In this document: positions 15,628-28,815 of the stretch, in pieces | Position numbering within the stretch: position 1 is the stretch's first letter | How the letters are laid out: every line of letters starts with the position of its first letter | DNA from: Tsuneonella aeria | Lineage (GTDB): Bacteria > Pseudomonadota > Alphaproteobacteria > Sphingomonadales > Sphingomonadaceae | Reading direction: 5' to 3' | Length of the DNA: 64,000 bases | Assembly (NCBI RefSeq): GCF_009827495.1 | Contig: NZ_WTZA01000002.1 | Span: forward strand, 561,894 to 625,893 | The notes under the pieces: model-generated | What the model was told of the DNA's origin: nothing | The model's input: the letters and a program-made list of their open reading frames with translations, nothing else | Database searches by the model: none | Program-made: the position numbers and the translations under genes

Positions 15628-16692
15628 ATGGCCGTCATCACAGCGATAGCCACCGCGGTCCCCGATCTCGATTTCGAAAAGGACTATCGCCGCTGGGCGA
15701 TCGGCCGCCTGGGCGAGAGCCGGGAGGCGAAGCTGTACGAACGCATGGCCCAGCGTTCCGGCATCGAGCACCGCTGGTCCGTCCTCGGCGAAGAGGATGC
15801 GCGGCTCGACGAAGGGCTCGGCTTCTACGGCAATGGCGCACCGTCCACCTCGGCGCGGATGGCGATTTATGCGCGCGCGGCGCCGGACCTGGCATTGCGG
15901 GCCATCGCCAGCCTGCCGGAGCTGGGCCGGCCCACGCATATCGTCGTGGCAAGCTGCACCGGCTTCGTCGCGCCGGGGATCGACCAGATCATCGCCCTGC
16001 GCCTCGGCCTCGGCAGCGATGTGGAGCGGGTGCTGATTGGGTTCATGGGCTGCTACGCCGCCGTCACCGCGCTCAGGACGGCGCGGCATATCGTTCGATC
16101 GCAGCCTGGCGCCCGCGTGCTGGTGGTGACGGTCGAGCTGTCGAGCCTGCATCACCAGGAGGAAATGGACCTTGAGCCATTGCTGATGGGCGCGCAGTTC
16201 GGCGACGGGGCGGCAGCGGCCATCGTTACCCATAATGCGCCCGGCCTTGTCCTTGGCGAAGGCATCTCCGCCGCGCTGGAAGACAGCGAGGGCCTGATCA
16301 CCTGGCGCATCGGAGACACCGGCTTCCACATGAAACTATCGGGCGAAGTGCCCGGCCGTATCGCGGCCGCGCTTGCCGACCCGGCGGTGCGCGCGCGGAT
16401 CACCGGAGGGGTGCCGCCGGAGGAAATCGCGGCGTGGGCGGTCCACGCCGGCGGCCGATCGATCCTCGACGCGGTGGAGAAAGGGCTGCACCTCCCCCCG
16501 GCGGCGCTCGACGCATCGCGCGAGGTGCTGCGAATGTGCGGCAACATGAGTTCGTCTACCCTGATGTTCGCGCTCAATCGCATCATGCGGGGCCGGCCGG
16601 CGAGCGGGGTGGCACTGGCCTTCGGGCCCGGGCTGGCGATGGAGGGCTTCCGGTTCGGCTGGCAGGATGCCGATAAGCGCGATGCTGCGTGA
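15628..16692 (+). CDS. Type III polyketide synthase (chalcone synthase-like)
   Basis: Homodimeric ketosynthase that extends an acyl-CoA starter with malonyl-CoA and cyclises the product to a resorcinol, pyrone or phloroglucinol. The 354 residues carry the family catalytic triad: Cys about 110 (VVASCTGFVAPG), His about 273 (WAVHAGG) and Asn about 306 (MCGNMSSST). The GFGPG-like loop near the C-terminus reads AFGPGLAMEGF. It overlaps the methyltransferase gene by 26 bp, which in turn overlaps the flavoprotein gene, so the three form one unit. By analogy with srsABC of Streptomyces griseus, a methylated and oxidised alkylresorcinol or quinone lipid is a reasonable guess, but starter and product cannot be read from sequence. 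Confidence 0.93.
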   Translation: MAVITAIATAVPDLDFEKDYRRWAIGRLGESREAKLYERMAQRSGIEHRWSVLGEEDARLDEGLGFYGNGAPSTSARMAIYARAAPDLALRAIASLPELGRPTHIVVASCTGFVAPGIDQIIALRLGLGSDVERVLIGFMGCYAAVTALRTARHIVRSQPGARVLVVTVELSSLHHQEEMDLEPLLMGAQFGDGAAAAIVTHNAPGLVLGEGISAALEDSEGLITWRIGDTGFHMKLSGEVPGRIAAALADPAVRARITGGVPPEEIAAWAVHAGGRSILDAVEKGLHLPPAALDASREVLRMCGNMSSSTLMFALNRIMRGRPASGVALAFGPGLAMEGFRFGWQDADKRDAA

Positions 16693-17368
16693 CCGGGCCA
16701 CTGATGACGAGCTGATGGACGACCCCGCGCTTGGCGCGGACACCTACACCGCCGTGCTTCACGACCTGGCGCAAGTGAACACGGTCACGCTCGCCCGGCG
16801 GCCGACCTTGCGGTTCCTGGAACGCGCCATCGGCACGCGGGCGAGTTTCACCCTGCTCGACGTGGGGTTCGGCGATGGCGACATGCTGCGGGCAATCGCG
16901 CGGTGGGCAGGGCGGCGCGGGATCGCGGCGCGACTGGTCGGCATCGATCTCAATCCCCGAAGCGTCGATGCAGCGCGTCAGGCCACGCCCGGCGGTCTGG
17001 GCATCGACTACCGTACGGGCGATTATGCCGGCTTGGCGGGCGAGGGCTGGGACTTCGTGGTGTCCAGCCTGGTGGCCCATCACATGAGCCATGACCAGCT
17101 CGTCGCCTTCCTGCGGTTCATGGAGCGGGAGGCTGTGGTGGGATGGCTGGTCAACGATCTCCATCGGCACGGGTTTCCCTATGCCGGCTGGCCTCTGCTG
17201 GCGGGGCTGATGCGCTGGCACCCGGTGGTGCGGCGCGATGGGCACCTGTCGATCGCGCGATCGTATCGACCCCGCGAATGGCCGCCGATCCTGGCGGAAG
17301 CAGGGGTGCGAAGGGCGCGGGTCGTCCGCCGCTTCCCCTTCCGGCTGTGCGTCGAATCCATTCAGTGA
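16667..17368 (+). CDS. Class I SAM-dependent methyltransferase of the type III PKS unit
   Basis: The product has 233 residues with a Rossmann methyltransferase fold: motif I LLDVGFGDGDMLRAIA (around residues 64-79), an acidic loop after VGIDLNPRSVD and motif IV-like WDFVVSSLVAHHM. ATG 16667 lies inside the end of the PKS gene and the stop overlaps the GTG of the flavoprotein (GTGA), so all three are coupled. The likely substrate is the PKS-derived phenolic (O- or C-methylation), by inference from context. Confidence 0.85.
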   Translation: MPISAMLRDRATDDELMDDPALGADTYTAVLHDLAQVNTVTLARRPTLRFLERAIGTRASFTLLDVGFGDGDMLRAIARWAGRRGIAARLVGIDLNPRSVDAARQATPGGLGIDYRTGDYAGLAGEGWDFVVSSLVAHHMSHDQLVAFLRFMEREAVVGWLVNDLHRHGFPYAGWPLLAGLMRWHPVVRRDGHLSIARSYRPREWPPILAEAGVRRARVVRRFPFRLCVESIQ

Positions 17369-18432
17369 AGGCCCCGCTAATCCTTGGGGCGGGGCCCGCG
17401 GGATCGATGGCGGCAATCCACCTGGCGCGTGCGGGGACGGCGCCGGTCCTGGTCGATCGCGACCCCCGGGTGGGCGACGCGCTGTGCGGCGGGTTCCTGT
17501 CGTGGCGCACTGCGGAGCGGTTGCGCGCGGTCGGGCTCGACCCGGTGCGTCTGGGGACGCACACGGTCAGCGAACTGGCGCTCTACGGCGGCAGCAGGGT
17601 CGCGACGGCAGGGCTTCCGCAGGCGGGCTACGGCGTGTCGCGGCGCGCGCTCGACGGTGCGCTGCGGGACCTTGCAGTCGAAGCGGGCGCGCAGCTTGCG
17701 ATCGAGCGGATTCGCGCGGTCGCGCCGAGGATTGTCGAAGGCGAAAACGGCACCTGGCACCCCGAAGCCGTGTTCCTCGCCAGCGGGAAGCACGACGTGC
17801 GGGGCGCCGGGCGACCGCGCGTGGCGGACGATCCGGCGCTGGGGCTGCGCGTCCGCCTGCCGCCTGCGCCCGCGCTCCATGCCCTGCTGCGGGGCCGGAT
17901 CGAGCTGCACCTGTTTCGCGGTGGCTATGCGGGAATCGTATTGCAGGAAGACGGCAGCGCCAATGTCTGCCTCGCGGTGCGAAAGTCGCTGCTTGCCCGG
18001 TTTGGCGGCAATCCGCAGCGATTGCTGGACAGCCTTGCCGATGAATATCCTCCATTCGCGGAGCGCATGGCGCACGCGCCCCCCGGCCTGCCGGTCGATA
18101 CGGTGGGCGCAGTCCCTTATGGCTACATCGCGCGGGCGACGACACCCGGCGTCTATCGCCTGGGGGACCAGGCCGCCGTGATCCCATCGATGGCGGGGGA
18201 AGGCATGGGCATCGCGGTGGCGAGCGGAGCGCTGGCGGCACGGGCCTGGTTGGGCAAGCAGGGCGCGCCCGAATACCAGCGCGCCTTCGCCGGCCAGGTC
18301 CGGCGGCCGGTCCGCGCGGCGCAGGCGATCTGGGCCCTTTCGGAAACGCCAGCAGGGGCCGCGCTGATGGCCCGTGCAACGCGCATCGCGCCCGCGCTGG
18401 CGCGCGGTGTGATGGCGCTGACCCGGCTCTAG
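17365..18432 (+). CDS. FAD-dependent oxidoreductase of the type III PKS unit (geranylgeranyl-reductase-like)
   Basis: Flavoprotein of 355 residues. The GTG at 17365 is chosen because it overlaps the preceding stop and places the dinucleotide fold at the very N-terminus (LILGAGPAGSMAAIHLA), as usual for this family. A second FAD motif is GVYRLGDQAAVIPSMAGEG, typical of group A hydroxylases and geranylgeranyl reductases. In the srs-type system a flavoprotein hydroxylates the phenolic ring, which would fit here. Its TAG interlocks with the stop of the convergent ilvE (CTAG). Confidence 0.87.
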   Translation: MKAPLILGAGPAGSMAAIHLARAGTAPVLVDRDPRVGDALCGGFLSWRTAERLRAVGLDPVRLGTHTVSELALYGGSRVATAGLPQAGYGVSRRALDGALRDLAVEAGAQLAIERIRAVAPRIVEGENGTWHPEAVFLASGKHDVRGAGRPRVADDPALGLRVRLPPAPALHALLRGRIELHLFRGGYAGIVLQEDGSANVCLAVRKSLLARFGGNPQRLLDSLADEYPPFAERMAHAPPGLPVDTVGAVPYGYIARATTPGVYRLGDQAAVIPSMAGEGMGIAVASGALAARAWLGKQGAPEYQRAFAGQVRRPVRAAQAIWALSETPAGAALMARATRIAPALARGVMALTRL

Positions 18433-19520
18433 AGCCGCACGACCCACCCGTGCGGATCGGGCTGCGTGCCTTTCTGGATGCCGACAAGCCGATCCCGCAG
18501 CTTGCCGGCGAGTTGACCCGGCCCGCCCGAACCGATCGTGAAGCCGCCGTCCGGGCCCGCGACCTTGCCGACGGGGGTGACGACCGCCGCGGTGCCGCAG
18601 GCCAGCGTCTCCACCAGCCGGCCCGATTCCGCATCGGCGCGCCACTGGTCGATGGCATAGCGTTCTTCCCGCACGGTCAGGCCTTCGTCGCGCAGCAGGG
18701 CGATCAGGCTATCGCGGGTGATGCCGGGCAGGATCGTTCCGCCCAGCGGCGGCGTGATTACGCTGCCATCGGCGAACGCGAAGAACAGGTTCATGCCGCC
18801 CAGCTCCTCGATCCAGCGACGCTCGACCGCGTCGAGGAACACGACCTGGTCGTGCCCCTTGGCGATCGCCTCTGCCTGGGGGACGAGGCTGGCGGCGTAA
18901 TTTCCCCCGGTCTTGGCCGCGCCGGTGCCGCCCGGCGCGGCGCGGACGTAGTCCTGGCTCACCCAGATGCTCACCGCCGGAACGCCCGACTTGAAGTAAT
19001 TGCCCACCGGGCTCGCTATCACGATGAACTTGTATTCGCGGGCGGGCCGCACGCCCAGGAACGCCTCGGACGCGAACATGAAGGGGCGCAGATAGAGCGA
19101 ACCGCCCTCGATATCGGGAAACCAGTCGCGATCCTTCAGCACCAGTTGCCGGCACGCTTCGACGAACAGGTCCTCGGGCAAGGTGGGCATTGCCAGCCGC
19201 TCGGCCGACTGGTTGAGGCGGCGGGCGTTCTCGTACGGGCGGAACAGCGCGAAGCTGCCGTCCGGGTGGCGGTATGCCTTCAGCCCTTCGAATATCTCCT
19301 GGGCATAGTGGAGGACCGCGCAGGCAGGATCGAGCGACAACGCCTCGCGCGGGCCGATCCGGGCATCGTGCCAGCCACCAAGGTCGCCGGAATGGTCGGC
19401 ATGGTAGTCGATCGTGACCATGTGGTCGGTGAAGACCGATCCGAAGCCGGGGTCTGCGATCGCCTGCGCGCGGCTTTCGCCAGGCACGGGCGCGGGGTGG
19501 GGCAGTTGCGCGAAATCCAT
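18429..19520 (-). CDS. ilvE: Branched-chain amino-acid aminotransferase
   Basis: PLP enzyme that interconverts Leu/Ile/Val and their 2-oxo acids. The product has 363 residues, as in the longer bacterial/eukaryotic group. Landmarks are YAQEIFEGLKAYR, GSLYLRPFMFASE, the PLP-lysine region TGGNYAASL, the conserved VFLDAVERRWIEELGGMN and the phosphate-binding GTAAVVTPVG. ATG 19520 gives the usual N-terminus. About 200 bp upstream on the same strand lies a structured RNA with a very strong ribosome site, which may control this gene. Confidence 0.94.
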   Translation of the reverse strand: MDFAQLPHPAPVPGESRAQAIADPGFGSVFTDHMVTIDYHADHSGDLGGWHDARIGPREALSLDPACAVLHYAQEIFEGLKAYRHPDGSFALFRPYENARRLNQSAERLAMPTLPEDLFVEACRQLVLKDRDWFPDIEGGSLYLRPFMFASEAFLGVRPAREYKFIVIASPVGNYFKSGVPAVSIWVSQDYVRAAPGGTGAAKTGGNYAASLVPQAEAIAKGHDQVVFLDAVERRWIEELGGMNLFFAFADGSVITPPLGGTILPGITRDSLIALLRDEGLTVREERYAIDQWRADAESGRLVETLACGTAAVVTPVGKVAGPDGGFTIGSGGPGQLAGKLRDRLVGIQKGTQPDPHGWVVRL

Positions 19521-19619: not shown

Positions 19620-19795
19620 TATGAGAAGGGCGGCCCCTGCGTTGCAAGGAACCGCCCTCCACATGGTCAGCGGCCAGTGCGGCCGCCCACGAAGCCTCTA
19701 TCGGCAAAAGAAAGCTCTACCGATAATGCTCCGCGAGGGTCGACACCGACCTCCCTGCTGAACCATGAGACATCGGATCACCTCCTTTCGCGCTG
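19620..19795 (-). ncRNA. Structured leader or small RNA with an 18-codon ORF, upstream of ilvE
   Basis: Minus-strand DNA from about 19795 contains GAAAGGAGGTGATCC (19789-19775), complementary to the 3' end of 16S rRNA over 15 nt, then the 18-codon ORF at 19773-19717. Three hairpins follow: TATCGG/CCGATA (arms 19720-19725 and 19699-19704, spanning the ORF stop), GCGGCC/GGCCGC (19670-19675 and 19681-19686), and AGGGCGG/CCGCCCT (19652-19658 and 19627-19633), the last followed by TTCTCAT. The layout suggests a short structured transcript or leader. No convincing promoter was found; limits are approximate. It ends about 100 bp before ilvE. Confidence 0.6.
19717..19773 (-). CDS. 18-residue ORF with a near-perfect Shine-Dalgarno
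   Basis: ATG 19773 to TAG 19717-19719 encodes MSHGSAGRSVSTLAEHYR. The ribosome site GAAAGGAGGTGATCC ends one base before the ATG, much closer than normal spacing from the core AGGAGG would need with so long a duplex. The peptide has no run of Leu, Ile or Val codons, so classical branched-chain attenuation is not supported. It may encode a real micropeptide, or translation may only serve to remodel the hairpins downstream. Similar sequences are, to my recollection, widespread in sphingomonads, but I cannot verify this here. Confidence 0.5.
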   Translation of the reverse strand: MSHGSAGRSVSTLAEHYR

Positions 19796-19870
19796 GATAG
19801 CCAGACCCGCCATTTCACCGGGGGCCGAGAGCCGCGTGGGTCGCTGGCCTCAAGCCGGAATGTGAGTCGT

Positions 19871-19882
19871 TTGCGCGCGCAA
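19871..19882. promoter_or_regulatory. 12-bp perfect palindrome TTGCGCGCGCAA
   Basis: An isolated perfect palindrome lies between the lipoprotein gene and the 5' end of the structured RNA. It could be a dimeric repressor site for the RNA upstream of ilvE, or chance in GC-rich DNA. The remaining intergenic sequence 19796-19959 shows no gene. Confidence 0.3.
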
Positions 19883-19959
19883 CGCAAGACTTGCATTTAA
19901 GTTTTTCCCCGTCAGGATCGGCCCTTCGCGCGGACGTGCCGGGGCCCGTCGCCACGGCG

Positions 19960-20493
19960 TCAGCGGCAGTCCTCGATCACGCGCGTGACCTCGGGCCAGC
20001 TCGGCAGGTAGAGCGGCGTCATGCCCTGCACCTCGATGCCGAAGCGCCCCTTGGAAAAGGCCATCGCGTCGAGCAGAGGGTCGTTCGCCTGCAGGGTCGC
20101 GGCCACCGCCGGAATAGCGCCGGGCACCGGATTGGCGGTGAGCGTGCGGCCGGTGAATTCCGTGCGCACCTGCATCGGCACGGGGCCGGTGGCGGCACCC
20201 GCGCGGTAGATCGTGATCGTGCGCCGCGCCGGATCGCACGTGAGCGTGAGGCGCGATTCCTGGTTCGCCTCCCCAAACAGCGCGCGCGTGGTGCCGCCGC
20301 CGGTGCGGTAGTACCAGTCGCCGGGCGTCGCGGGGGCGTCCATCCAGTTGGACGGCGGCGGCGCGGGCAGCGGGGATGGCGTCGGCGTGGGCGCGGTGCT
20401 GGTCGGCGGGGCCGGGGTGGGAGCGGGCTTGGGCGCGGTGCAGCACGCCGCCGCGAGGCTGGCCGTCACCACGAATGGGACACGAAAACGCAT
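19960..20493 (-). CDS. Proline-rich secreted or lipoprotein-like hypothetical
   Basis: The product has 177 residues. The start ATG 20493 follows GGGAG. The N-terminus (MRFRVPFVVTASLAAACCTA) looks like a lipoprotein signal with Cys at 17 or 18. A Pro/Thr/Ala linker (about residues 20-48) precedes a small globular domain (DWYYRTGGGTTRALFGEANQ ... VTRVIEDCR). The domain probably faces the periplasm. I do not recognise a characterised family. It is divergent from tlyA with only 52 bp between starts. Confidence 0.75.
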   Translation of the reverse strand: MRFRVPFVVTASLAAACCTAPKPAPTPAPPTSTAPTPTPSPLPAPPPSNWMDAPATPGDWYYRTGGGTTRALFGEANQESRLTLTCDPARRTITIYRAGAATGPVPMQVRTEFTGRTLTANPVPGAIPAVAATLQANDPLLDAMAFSKGRFGIEVQGMTPLYLPSWPEVTRVIEDCR

Positions 20494-28399: not shown

Positions 28400-28430
28400 A
28401 GGGGGTGGCCCCGGCCGTTGCCGAAGTCAC

Positions 28431-28458
28431 TTCACATTCATGCGGCAATGCCTATATC
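28431..28458 (+). promoter_or_regulatory. Probable sigma-70 promoter of the tmRNA gene
   Basis: TTCACA (28431-28436), a 16-bp spacer and TATATC (28453-28458) form a reasonable housekeeping promoter. Transcription would begin near 28465, just before the acceptor half of tmRNA. It lies directly downstream of mscL. Confidence 0.5.
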
Positions 28459-28464
28459 GGGCGT

Positions 28465-28815
28465 TGCCGGCTTTCGGGCCGGCTATGGCGATAAAGTGCA
28501 GTGTGCAATAGGCGCAGCGGACCCGGGGGCAGTACCCGGCGGCTCCACCACTTTCCCCGGGCCAGGCCCGGGGGACATGACGGGGCCGAACCAGGATCGA
28601 CGTGTGTTGAAAAGCATTGTTTTCGCCCGGGCTGAGTAACCCGTTCAAGGCTCAAAACTCACAAGTGCCAACGACAACGAAGCACTTGCTCTCGCTGCGT
28701 AATCTGACGGCCTAACGGCCTGATCTTACAAGGACTTGAGCACGGTTCGGACCGAACCGGGTAACAGAATCGGAAACCGGGGGCCCGGGGGAGCCTAGCA
28801 ACAGAATCCCCCACC
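28465..28815 (+). ncRNA. ssrA: Permuted two-piece tmRNA
   Basis: tmRNA rescues stalled ribosomes and tags the nascent chain. The gene is circularly permuted, as in alphaproteobacteria. The acceptor half comes first, with a T-arm (ACCCGGGGGCAGTACCCGG) and the 3' end CGGCTCCACCA at 28540-28550. After a spacer the coding half starts GGGGCCG at 28582, which pairs with CGGCTCC to make the acceptor stem. The tag frame 28667-28702 reads ANDNEALALAA then TAA. Pseudoknot-like stems follow (GGTTCGG/CCGAACC at 28744-28758; GGGGG/CCCCC further on). The outer ends are approximate. Confidence 0.9.

Follow-up and report, generated by a model that had tools for sequence, protein, structure and literature searches.

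The closest described relative of the RNA considered here is Rfam family RF01867 (CC2171), which is filed as a Caulobacter 'sRNA' and whose name reportedly goes back to Landt in 2008. The family is named in two reports (PMC11701678; PMC5596092), and in the available sections of the latter a Mesorhizobium match is listed among predicted sRNAs with a sequenced product of 215 nt. In the literature searched, no published description of an ORF in CC2171, or of its complementarity to 16S rRNA, was found. Ribosome profiles of Caulobacter have been reported in which, going by the available part of the study, most ncRNA regions are untranslated while two earlier ncRNAs are actually translated, and 375 leaderless mRNAs were reported there as well (Schrader 2014, PMC4117421). 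Caulobacter is also described, in the available excerpt, as containing abundant small RNAs with an anti-Shine-Dalgarno motif, along with a sponge that counters them (PMC12559287). Identity of the present RNA with CcnA is unsupported, CcnA having been described in the accessible text as a 182-nt RNA that acts through a CCCC loop (PMC8959179); the two are set apart by this description rather than by coordinates.

Two further systems invite comparison. The rnTrpL RNA of Sinorhizobium is a small structured RNA containing a short ORF whose translation matters, as far as the excerpted account goes (PMC10117765), and in this it resembles the Tsuneonella RNA. The latter differs from rnTrpL and from leader-peptide RNAs in having neither an amino-acid codon run nor a conserved downstream operon, and in carrying its own terminator-like hairpin and a sequence complementary to almost all of the 16S tail; in addition, the peTrpL peptide is functional, whereas the Tsuneonella peptide looks unselected. 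In Staphylococcus aureus an extended Shine-Dalgarno sequence pairs with 16S rRNA past GGAGG toward the start codon, and in the part of that report available the solved complex contains two extra base pairs and concerns a protein gene (PMC13009471), whereas the Tsuneonella element comprises 15 contiguous nucleotides in a dedicated small RNA.

Layout of the locus and kinship with CC2171

Within the window (the whole stretch of DNA analysed, 64,000 nucleotides), a compact RNA gene lies entirely on the minus strand at 19789-19625, flanked by a small lipoprotein-like gene at 19960-20493 and by the ilvE start codon at 19520. In the order of that strand come the 15-mer, one base, an ATG, the ORF, a hairpin that spans its stop codon and a terminator-like hairpin.

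19859..19887, minus strand: possible promoter TTGCGT-17-CACATT (by eye)
19775..19789, minus strand: 15-nt exact complement of the 16S rRNA 3' tail, an extended Shine-Dalgarno, GAAAGGAGGTGATCC (from the sequence)
19717..19773 with stop, minus strand: 18-codon ORF, MSHGSAGRSVSTLAEHYR, with TAG at 19719-19717 (from the sequence and in-frame stop conservation)
19757..19767, minus strand: 5' strand of helix P1, CATGGTTCAGC, from codon 3 of the ORF, pairing with 19671-19662 (cross-group covariation)
19699..19725, minus strand: hairpin TATCGGTAGAGC..TTTGCCGATA across the ORF stop, the tip of a longer covarying helix (compensatory changes)
19669..19687, minus strand: middle self-complementary stretch, a possible local hairpin competing with P1 and its inner extension (in silico masking; unproven)
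19662..19671, minus strand: 3' strand of P1, GCTGACCATG, immediately 5' of the terminator-like hairpin (cross-group pairing counts)
19625..19659, minus strand: terminator-like hairpin with weak T-tract TTCTCATATCC (compensatory changes)
18429..19520, minus strand: ilvE (branched-chain aminotransferase), the downstream neighbour, outside the conserved unit (NCBIfam PRK13357 and ilvE_II above cut-off)

A single G separates GAAAGGAGGTGATCC (19789-19775) from the ATG at 19773-19771, as stated in the original prediction of an 18-codon ORF one base from a 15-nt anti-16S element, and the 104 bp between the terminator-like hairpin and the ilvE ATG agree with the roughly 100 bp given there. A CTTG..GACTCACATT block resembling the putative promoter was seen by eye upstream in several of the relatives listed; the promoter itself was absent from the results of a consensus promoter scan of the window. 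The consensus terminator scan does not list the hairpin at 19659-19625, because its T-tract is weak here.

The RF01867 model aligns to the Tsuneonella RNA over its full length (1-159 of 159, with no truncation), including the closing helix and terminator, at 53.5 bits and E 1.2e-10, which does not reach the gathering score of 75 bits. The Tsuneonella RNA is therefore a relative of RF01867 and not a formal member, and a gathering-level Rfam scan of the whole window returned tmRNA models only, RF01867 being seen at the E-value level alone. In a sample of the class, 75 of 289 genomes matched the model at E≤0.01 and 10 of the 289 exceeded the cut-off; among 14 control genomes one did so, the two that matched being Caulobacter vibrioides and Deinobacterium chartae. 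In this alignment the two share the 15-mer, the start codon, the closing helix and the terminator. By eye, the RF01867 consensus contains a GTG-started ORF of about 22 codons, though it is filed as non-coding, and the Tsuneonella RNA differs in having an ATG and an 18-codon ORF of sphingomonad type. Twelve further loci from a pattern search, in several families, carry the 15-mer or a one-base variant of it, a start codon and a short ORF, and gave no gathering-level Rfam match except two tRNAs. RF01867 and the Tsuneonella RNA thus look like two separate branches of a larger group.

The 16S complement and its distribution

The 16S tail used for comparison (..GGATCACCTCCTTTCT) was taken from plasmid-borne rRNA and not from the 16S genes of the Tsuneonella genome; it is matched in 237 records of a plasmid collection, 209 of them at ≥99 per cent, and most of the organism names listed belong to Alphaproteobacteria, 8 being Acinetobacter. 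The 15-mer complements this tail through its last but one base, starting at what we take to be about the end of 16S helix 45, and the calculated energy of the duplex is -28.0 kcal/mol compared with -8.7 kcal/mol for GGAGG. It is the only site in the window, on either strand of the 64 kb, with at least 10 contiguous nucleotides complementary to the tail, and a search of the genome sequence with GAAAGGAGGTGATC at up to one mismatch found this locus alone. A chance match was rejected on the basis of this uniqueness, in the 64 kb and in the genome searched, and of conservation in relatives.

There is reason to think that the constraint on the 15-mer would be pairing with 16S rRNA. Among 185 loci 29 changes were counted, 18 of them at interior positions; 16 of these 18 are A>G and retain a G-U pair with the tail (11 of the 16 sit at one position and are partly shared by descent), and the other two are T>C and lose the pair. 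Because interior changes mostly keep pairing in this way, the pattern speaks more for 16S pairing than for a protein site or an unspecific GGAGG tract. Immediately 5' of the 15-mer the sequence is rich in A and C (position -7 is A in 154 of the 185 loci), consistent with an unstructured docking region.

Close kin carry the RNA locus, as found by DNA similarity search. Within the order, 158 of 247 genomes contain a 25-nt core at up to three mismatches: 158/186 in Tsuneonella's own family and 0/61 in other families. Samples of the class and of the phylum gave the same core in 79 of 387 and 80 of 397 genomes respectively, the latter all but one (G789) from the same class, and the reversed-pattern control produced no match in any listed row of the order, class and phylum scans. 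An exact-core scan of named genomes yielded at least 120 stretches, and the 80 titles listed among these are Alphaproteobacteria or unplaced Proteobacteria MAGs by name; together with the alpha_tmRNA match in the window, these names point to Alphaproteobacteria as its class. The invariance of the core is partly built in, the core having served as the search query; ORF length, the 3' strand of P1 and the terminator lay outside the 25-nt query. Two core sites occur in 11 of the 158 order genomes (G069, G850, G857, G895, G911, G928, G943, G949, G961, G978 and G982); the printed pairs usually consist of one GATCC and one GGTC variant, and in G978 and G982 they lie ∼4 kb apart.

Fold and reading frame

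The original prediction described a structured RNA with three hairpins. Structure was borne out, in that the fold (-97.1 kcal/mol, z -4.6) beats all 200 dinucleotide shuffles; the stop-spanning and terminator-like hairpins are present, but the lowest-energy fold is one long-range domain in which the ORF pairs with the 3' half. A structure of 43 pairs, applied to 31 sphingomonad relatives, has 92.9 per cent of cells paired and reaches a covariation score of 0.390, compared with a shuffle mean of 0.179 (0/500 as high) and a slid maximum of 0.138, with the structure derived from the same alignment that was used for counting, which leans toward support. Every one of the 15 pairs in the stop-spanning element has compensatory changes in these 31 relatives, as do 10 of the 12 aligned pairs in the terminator-like hairpin; none was found in the inner extension of P1.

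P1 is nearly invariant among the 31 sphingomonads and was for that reason tested across groups instead. Codons 3-5 pair at 7/7 positions with the pre-terminator strand in 95 of 176 loci (9 of 185, in which no terminator was found, were left out), against 91 of 5280 mismatched combinations with partners drawn from loci with a different 5' strand. The fourth position is T-A in 62 loci, G-C in 46, C-G in 9, A-T in 3 and another combination in 4, counted in loci with at least 6/7 P1 pairs, a restriction that leans toward pairing. Because codons 3-5 form a strand of P1, the closed fold and translation start should be mutually exclusive, and a ribosome at the start codon should, given the size of its footprint, cover that strand.

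Segments were folded in sets of 150, 172, 171 and 168 from the 176 loci, those outside the set lengths being left out. The closed full domain has a mean z of -3.6 relative to shuffles (171 loci) and the ORF alone -0.1 (172 loci), so the ORF is structured via its 3' partner; the 3' segment alone gives -1.49 (150 loci). In the predicted closed fold the Shine-Dalgarno is only partly open, with a mean unpaired value of 0.44 versus 0.28 for the rest of the RNA. A role for P1 as a helix that hides the Shine-Dalgarno was rejected, since the latter lies outside P1 and is more open than the remaining RNA, if not fully so.

Upon in silico masking of the ORF, at least 3 nt of the local hairpin at 19669-19687 re-pair in 157 of 168 loci. 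Folding favours this hairpin and covariation does not (90.9 per cent of its cells are paired, with no covariation), and it is not claimed as an evolved alternative state; were it one, it would complete an attenuator-like two-state picture. Loci of other subfamilies (L228, L230, L231, L244 and L246, together with L238 and L239) show, by eye, a short hairpin close to the stop codon whose loop resembles CAGC (GAGCAGCCT, CTAGGGCAGCCCCTAG), possibly the counterpart of the stop-spanning hairpin.

The short ORF is kept across relatives with respect to its length. In 181 of 185 loci less than 80 per cent alike, an in-frame stop falls at 14-35 codons, with none shorter and four longer (L101, L128, L184 and L188), while frames +1 and +2 of the same loci have a stop in this range in only 64 and 79, and 31 per cent of shuffled sequences stop before codon 14. 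A smaller set of 144 loci less than 85 per cent alike (kept from 179) places the in-frame stop at codons 16-27 in 140, as against 23 and 42 in the other frames, 13 per cent at random positions and 21 per cent in shuffled sequences; when the 55 loci of exactly 18 codons are removed, 85 of 89 stay within that range. Both sets were dereplicated of near-copies, and although relatedness lowers the independence of the counts, the frames were compared on identical sequences. L049, scored as having no start by the start rule, has by eye a GTG followed by 25 codons. The lower bound is informative because avoidance of run-off requires an upper bound only, and from such comparisons the predicted ORF is judged to be under selection for length. 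The question of whether ORF and stems are kept in relatives, raised along with the original prediction, is answered in the affirmative by the conserved in-frame stop and the covarying stems.

The encoded amino acids behave differently from ORF length. Between close pairs of the 185-locus set, substitutions at codon positions 1, 2 and 3 number 128, 120 and 103, and the nonsynonymous share is 0.80 versus 0.66 for random changes; neither third-position bias nor peptide conservation was found in these substitutions, and the amino-acid sequence looks unselected. A TW[IV]..A.. motif recurs in peptides of a non-sphingomonad group and could be a local exception, in which peptide-level selection was missed by the substitution test. 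Of what would be expected of a dual-function or translated sRNA, selection on the ORF is thus indicated (181/185 loci) and selection on the peptide sequence is not.

Six loci (L101, L128, L140, which is Azospirillum by title, L184, L185 and L188) have the same 15-mer and an MSHG.. start before an ORF of 56-59 aa with a signal-peptide-like N-terminus (MSHGASPVVAALFGLAALLTAGIANA..), L184 with one base changed; either a protein gene took over the module or the micro-ORF became longer. A 14-codon version of the ORF ending in KRCHLAGIAR or KRCHLAEAAR is nearly identical in L235, L236 and L237, all from one family; L235 and L236 have a tRNA gene immediately upstream, on the opposite strand.

Candidate functions of the RNA

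It is about as probable as not (roughly 0.5) that this is a stand-alone, translated small RNA serving as a ribosome-loaded RNA switch that acts in trans. The comparison shows a 16S complement before the start, P1 overlapping codons 3-5, a covarying inner domain, and an ORF selected for length whose peptide appears unselected. A 30S subunit would dock via the 15-bp duplex with the 16S tail, initiation and translation of the ORF would keep P1 and the stop-spanning hairpin open, and an RNA without a ribosome would close into one compact domain. The signal would then be the act of translation and not the peptide, and what follows might be, at a guess, an altered stability of the RNA or the freeing of its 3' strand GACnAUG for a trans partner.

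A more tentative and on the whole doubtful extension is that the RNA serves throughout the class to gauge free 30S subunits. As an autonomous gene product it would bind almost all of the exposed 16S 3' tail, undergo translation solely to stay open, and switch its partner or lifetime once initiation capacity drops. 6S RNA is an abundant RNA that captures RNA polymerase, and the likeness to it would lie in an abundant RNA capturing a central machine, should the gauge or a sequestering role hold; the target would differ, being the 30S subunit and not RNA polymerase. If true, the gauge would be the ribosome-side counterpart of 6S RNA, with translation of a sequence-free ORF as its signal. As it stands, many families of one class share a 15-nt element, hardly varying, that is complementary to the 16S tail; relatives of a family catalogued as non-coding are, on comparative grounds, mRNA-like RNAs with a selected ORF and an unselected peptide; and a widespread short ORF is suggested to have been overlooked by annotation pipelines. 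Should translation as such be the signal, this RNA would be a clean system for asking how cells gauge initiation capacity.

The main rivals to the switch reading are a micropeptide mRNA and a sink for small subunits. A messenger whose purpose is to produce a small peptide through very frequent initiation, its structure serving for stability alone, would account for a selected ORF behind a maximal Shine-Dalgarno, the conserved N-terminus MSH, the recurrent TW[IV] motif of one group and the six loci of one group with the same start region before a secreted-like protein of 56-59 aa. It is nevertheless unlikely, given that amino-acid changes are at least as frequent as random prediction, that the conserved first codons overlap the P1 strand, and that the peptides of 14-35 residues vary widely among groups; the unusual micropeptide of the original prediction is weakened as an option, because ORF length is conserved and its amino acids are not. 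Should the 15-bp duplex instead serve mainly to sequester small subunits, with the short ORF recycling the captured ribosome, its calculated advantage over GGAGG and the tendency of interior 15-mer changes to retain 16S pairing would be explained. The minimum ORF length, the covarying stop-spanning element and P1 would not be, and a copy number comparable to that of free 30S would be required, which makes this reading improbable too. The ribosome-sensing and ribosome-sequestering proposals made earlier are both live. Still less probable is an ordinary trans-acting sRNA, or a sponge for anti-Shine-Dalgarno sRNAs, with an incidental ORF: the nearest Rfam relative is catalogued among sRNAs, and Caulobacter offers a precedent for such a sponge in the available text (PMC12559287), but neither reading accounts for the in-frame length constraint on the ORF or for conservation that reaches GGUGAUCC, past a CCUCC partner.

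It had also been proposed that the RNA is a leader of ilvE, which lies on the same strand 104 bp downstream of a terminator-like hairpin with a weak T-tract. We give a leader or attenuator of ilvE very little credence. The gene is clustered downstream in just 15 of 148 oriented loci, all with a sphingomonad-type ORF, and the core occurs in many other families, so the proposal is unsupported. MSHGSAGRSVSTLAEHYR contains one Val and one Leu and no branched-chain run, as the original prediction had correctly noted, and thus lacks the end-product codon run of an attenuator; and since the terminator-like hairpin lies wholly outside P1, it would be released in neither fold. An ilvE attenuator is accordingly unlikely, and returning to the switch reading, the lack of a common downstream neighbour together with the RNA's own terminator-like hairpin argues for a predicted autonomous gene. 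Of all neighbours, the lipoprotein-like gene on the upstream side is met most often (51 of 148 loci, all with a sphingomonad-type ORF), and no other downstream cluster among the 148 exceeded the 51- and 15-locus counts, all of which are approximate because the clustering took ORFs at face value, including some that only mirror real genes on the opposite strand.

Elsewhere around the locus, the lipoprotein-like gene at 19960-20493 (minus strand) has 0 NCBIfam matches. Genes resembling a type III polyketide synthase, a methyltransferase and a geranylgeranyl-reductase-like flavoprotein stand in a row at 15628-18432 (plus strand), labels that come from NCBIfam matches below cut-off and, for the methyltransferase, from inspection by eye. 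An alphaproteobacterial (permuted) tmRNA lies at 28427-28778 on the plus strand, with a score of 224 bits (alpha_tmRNA).
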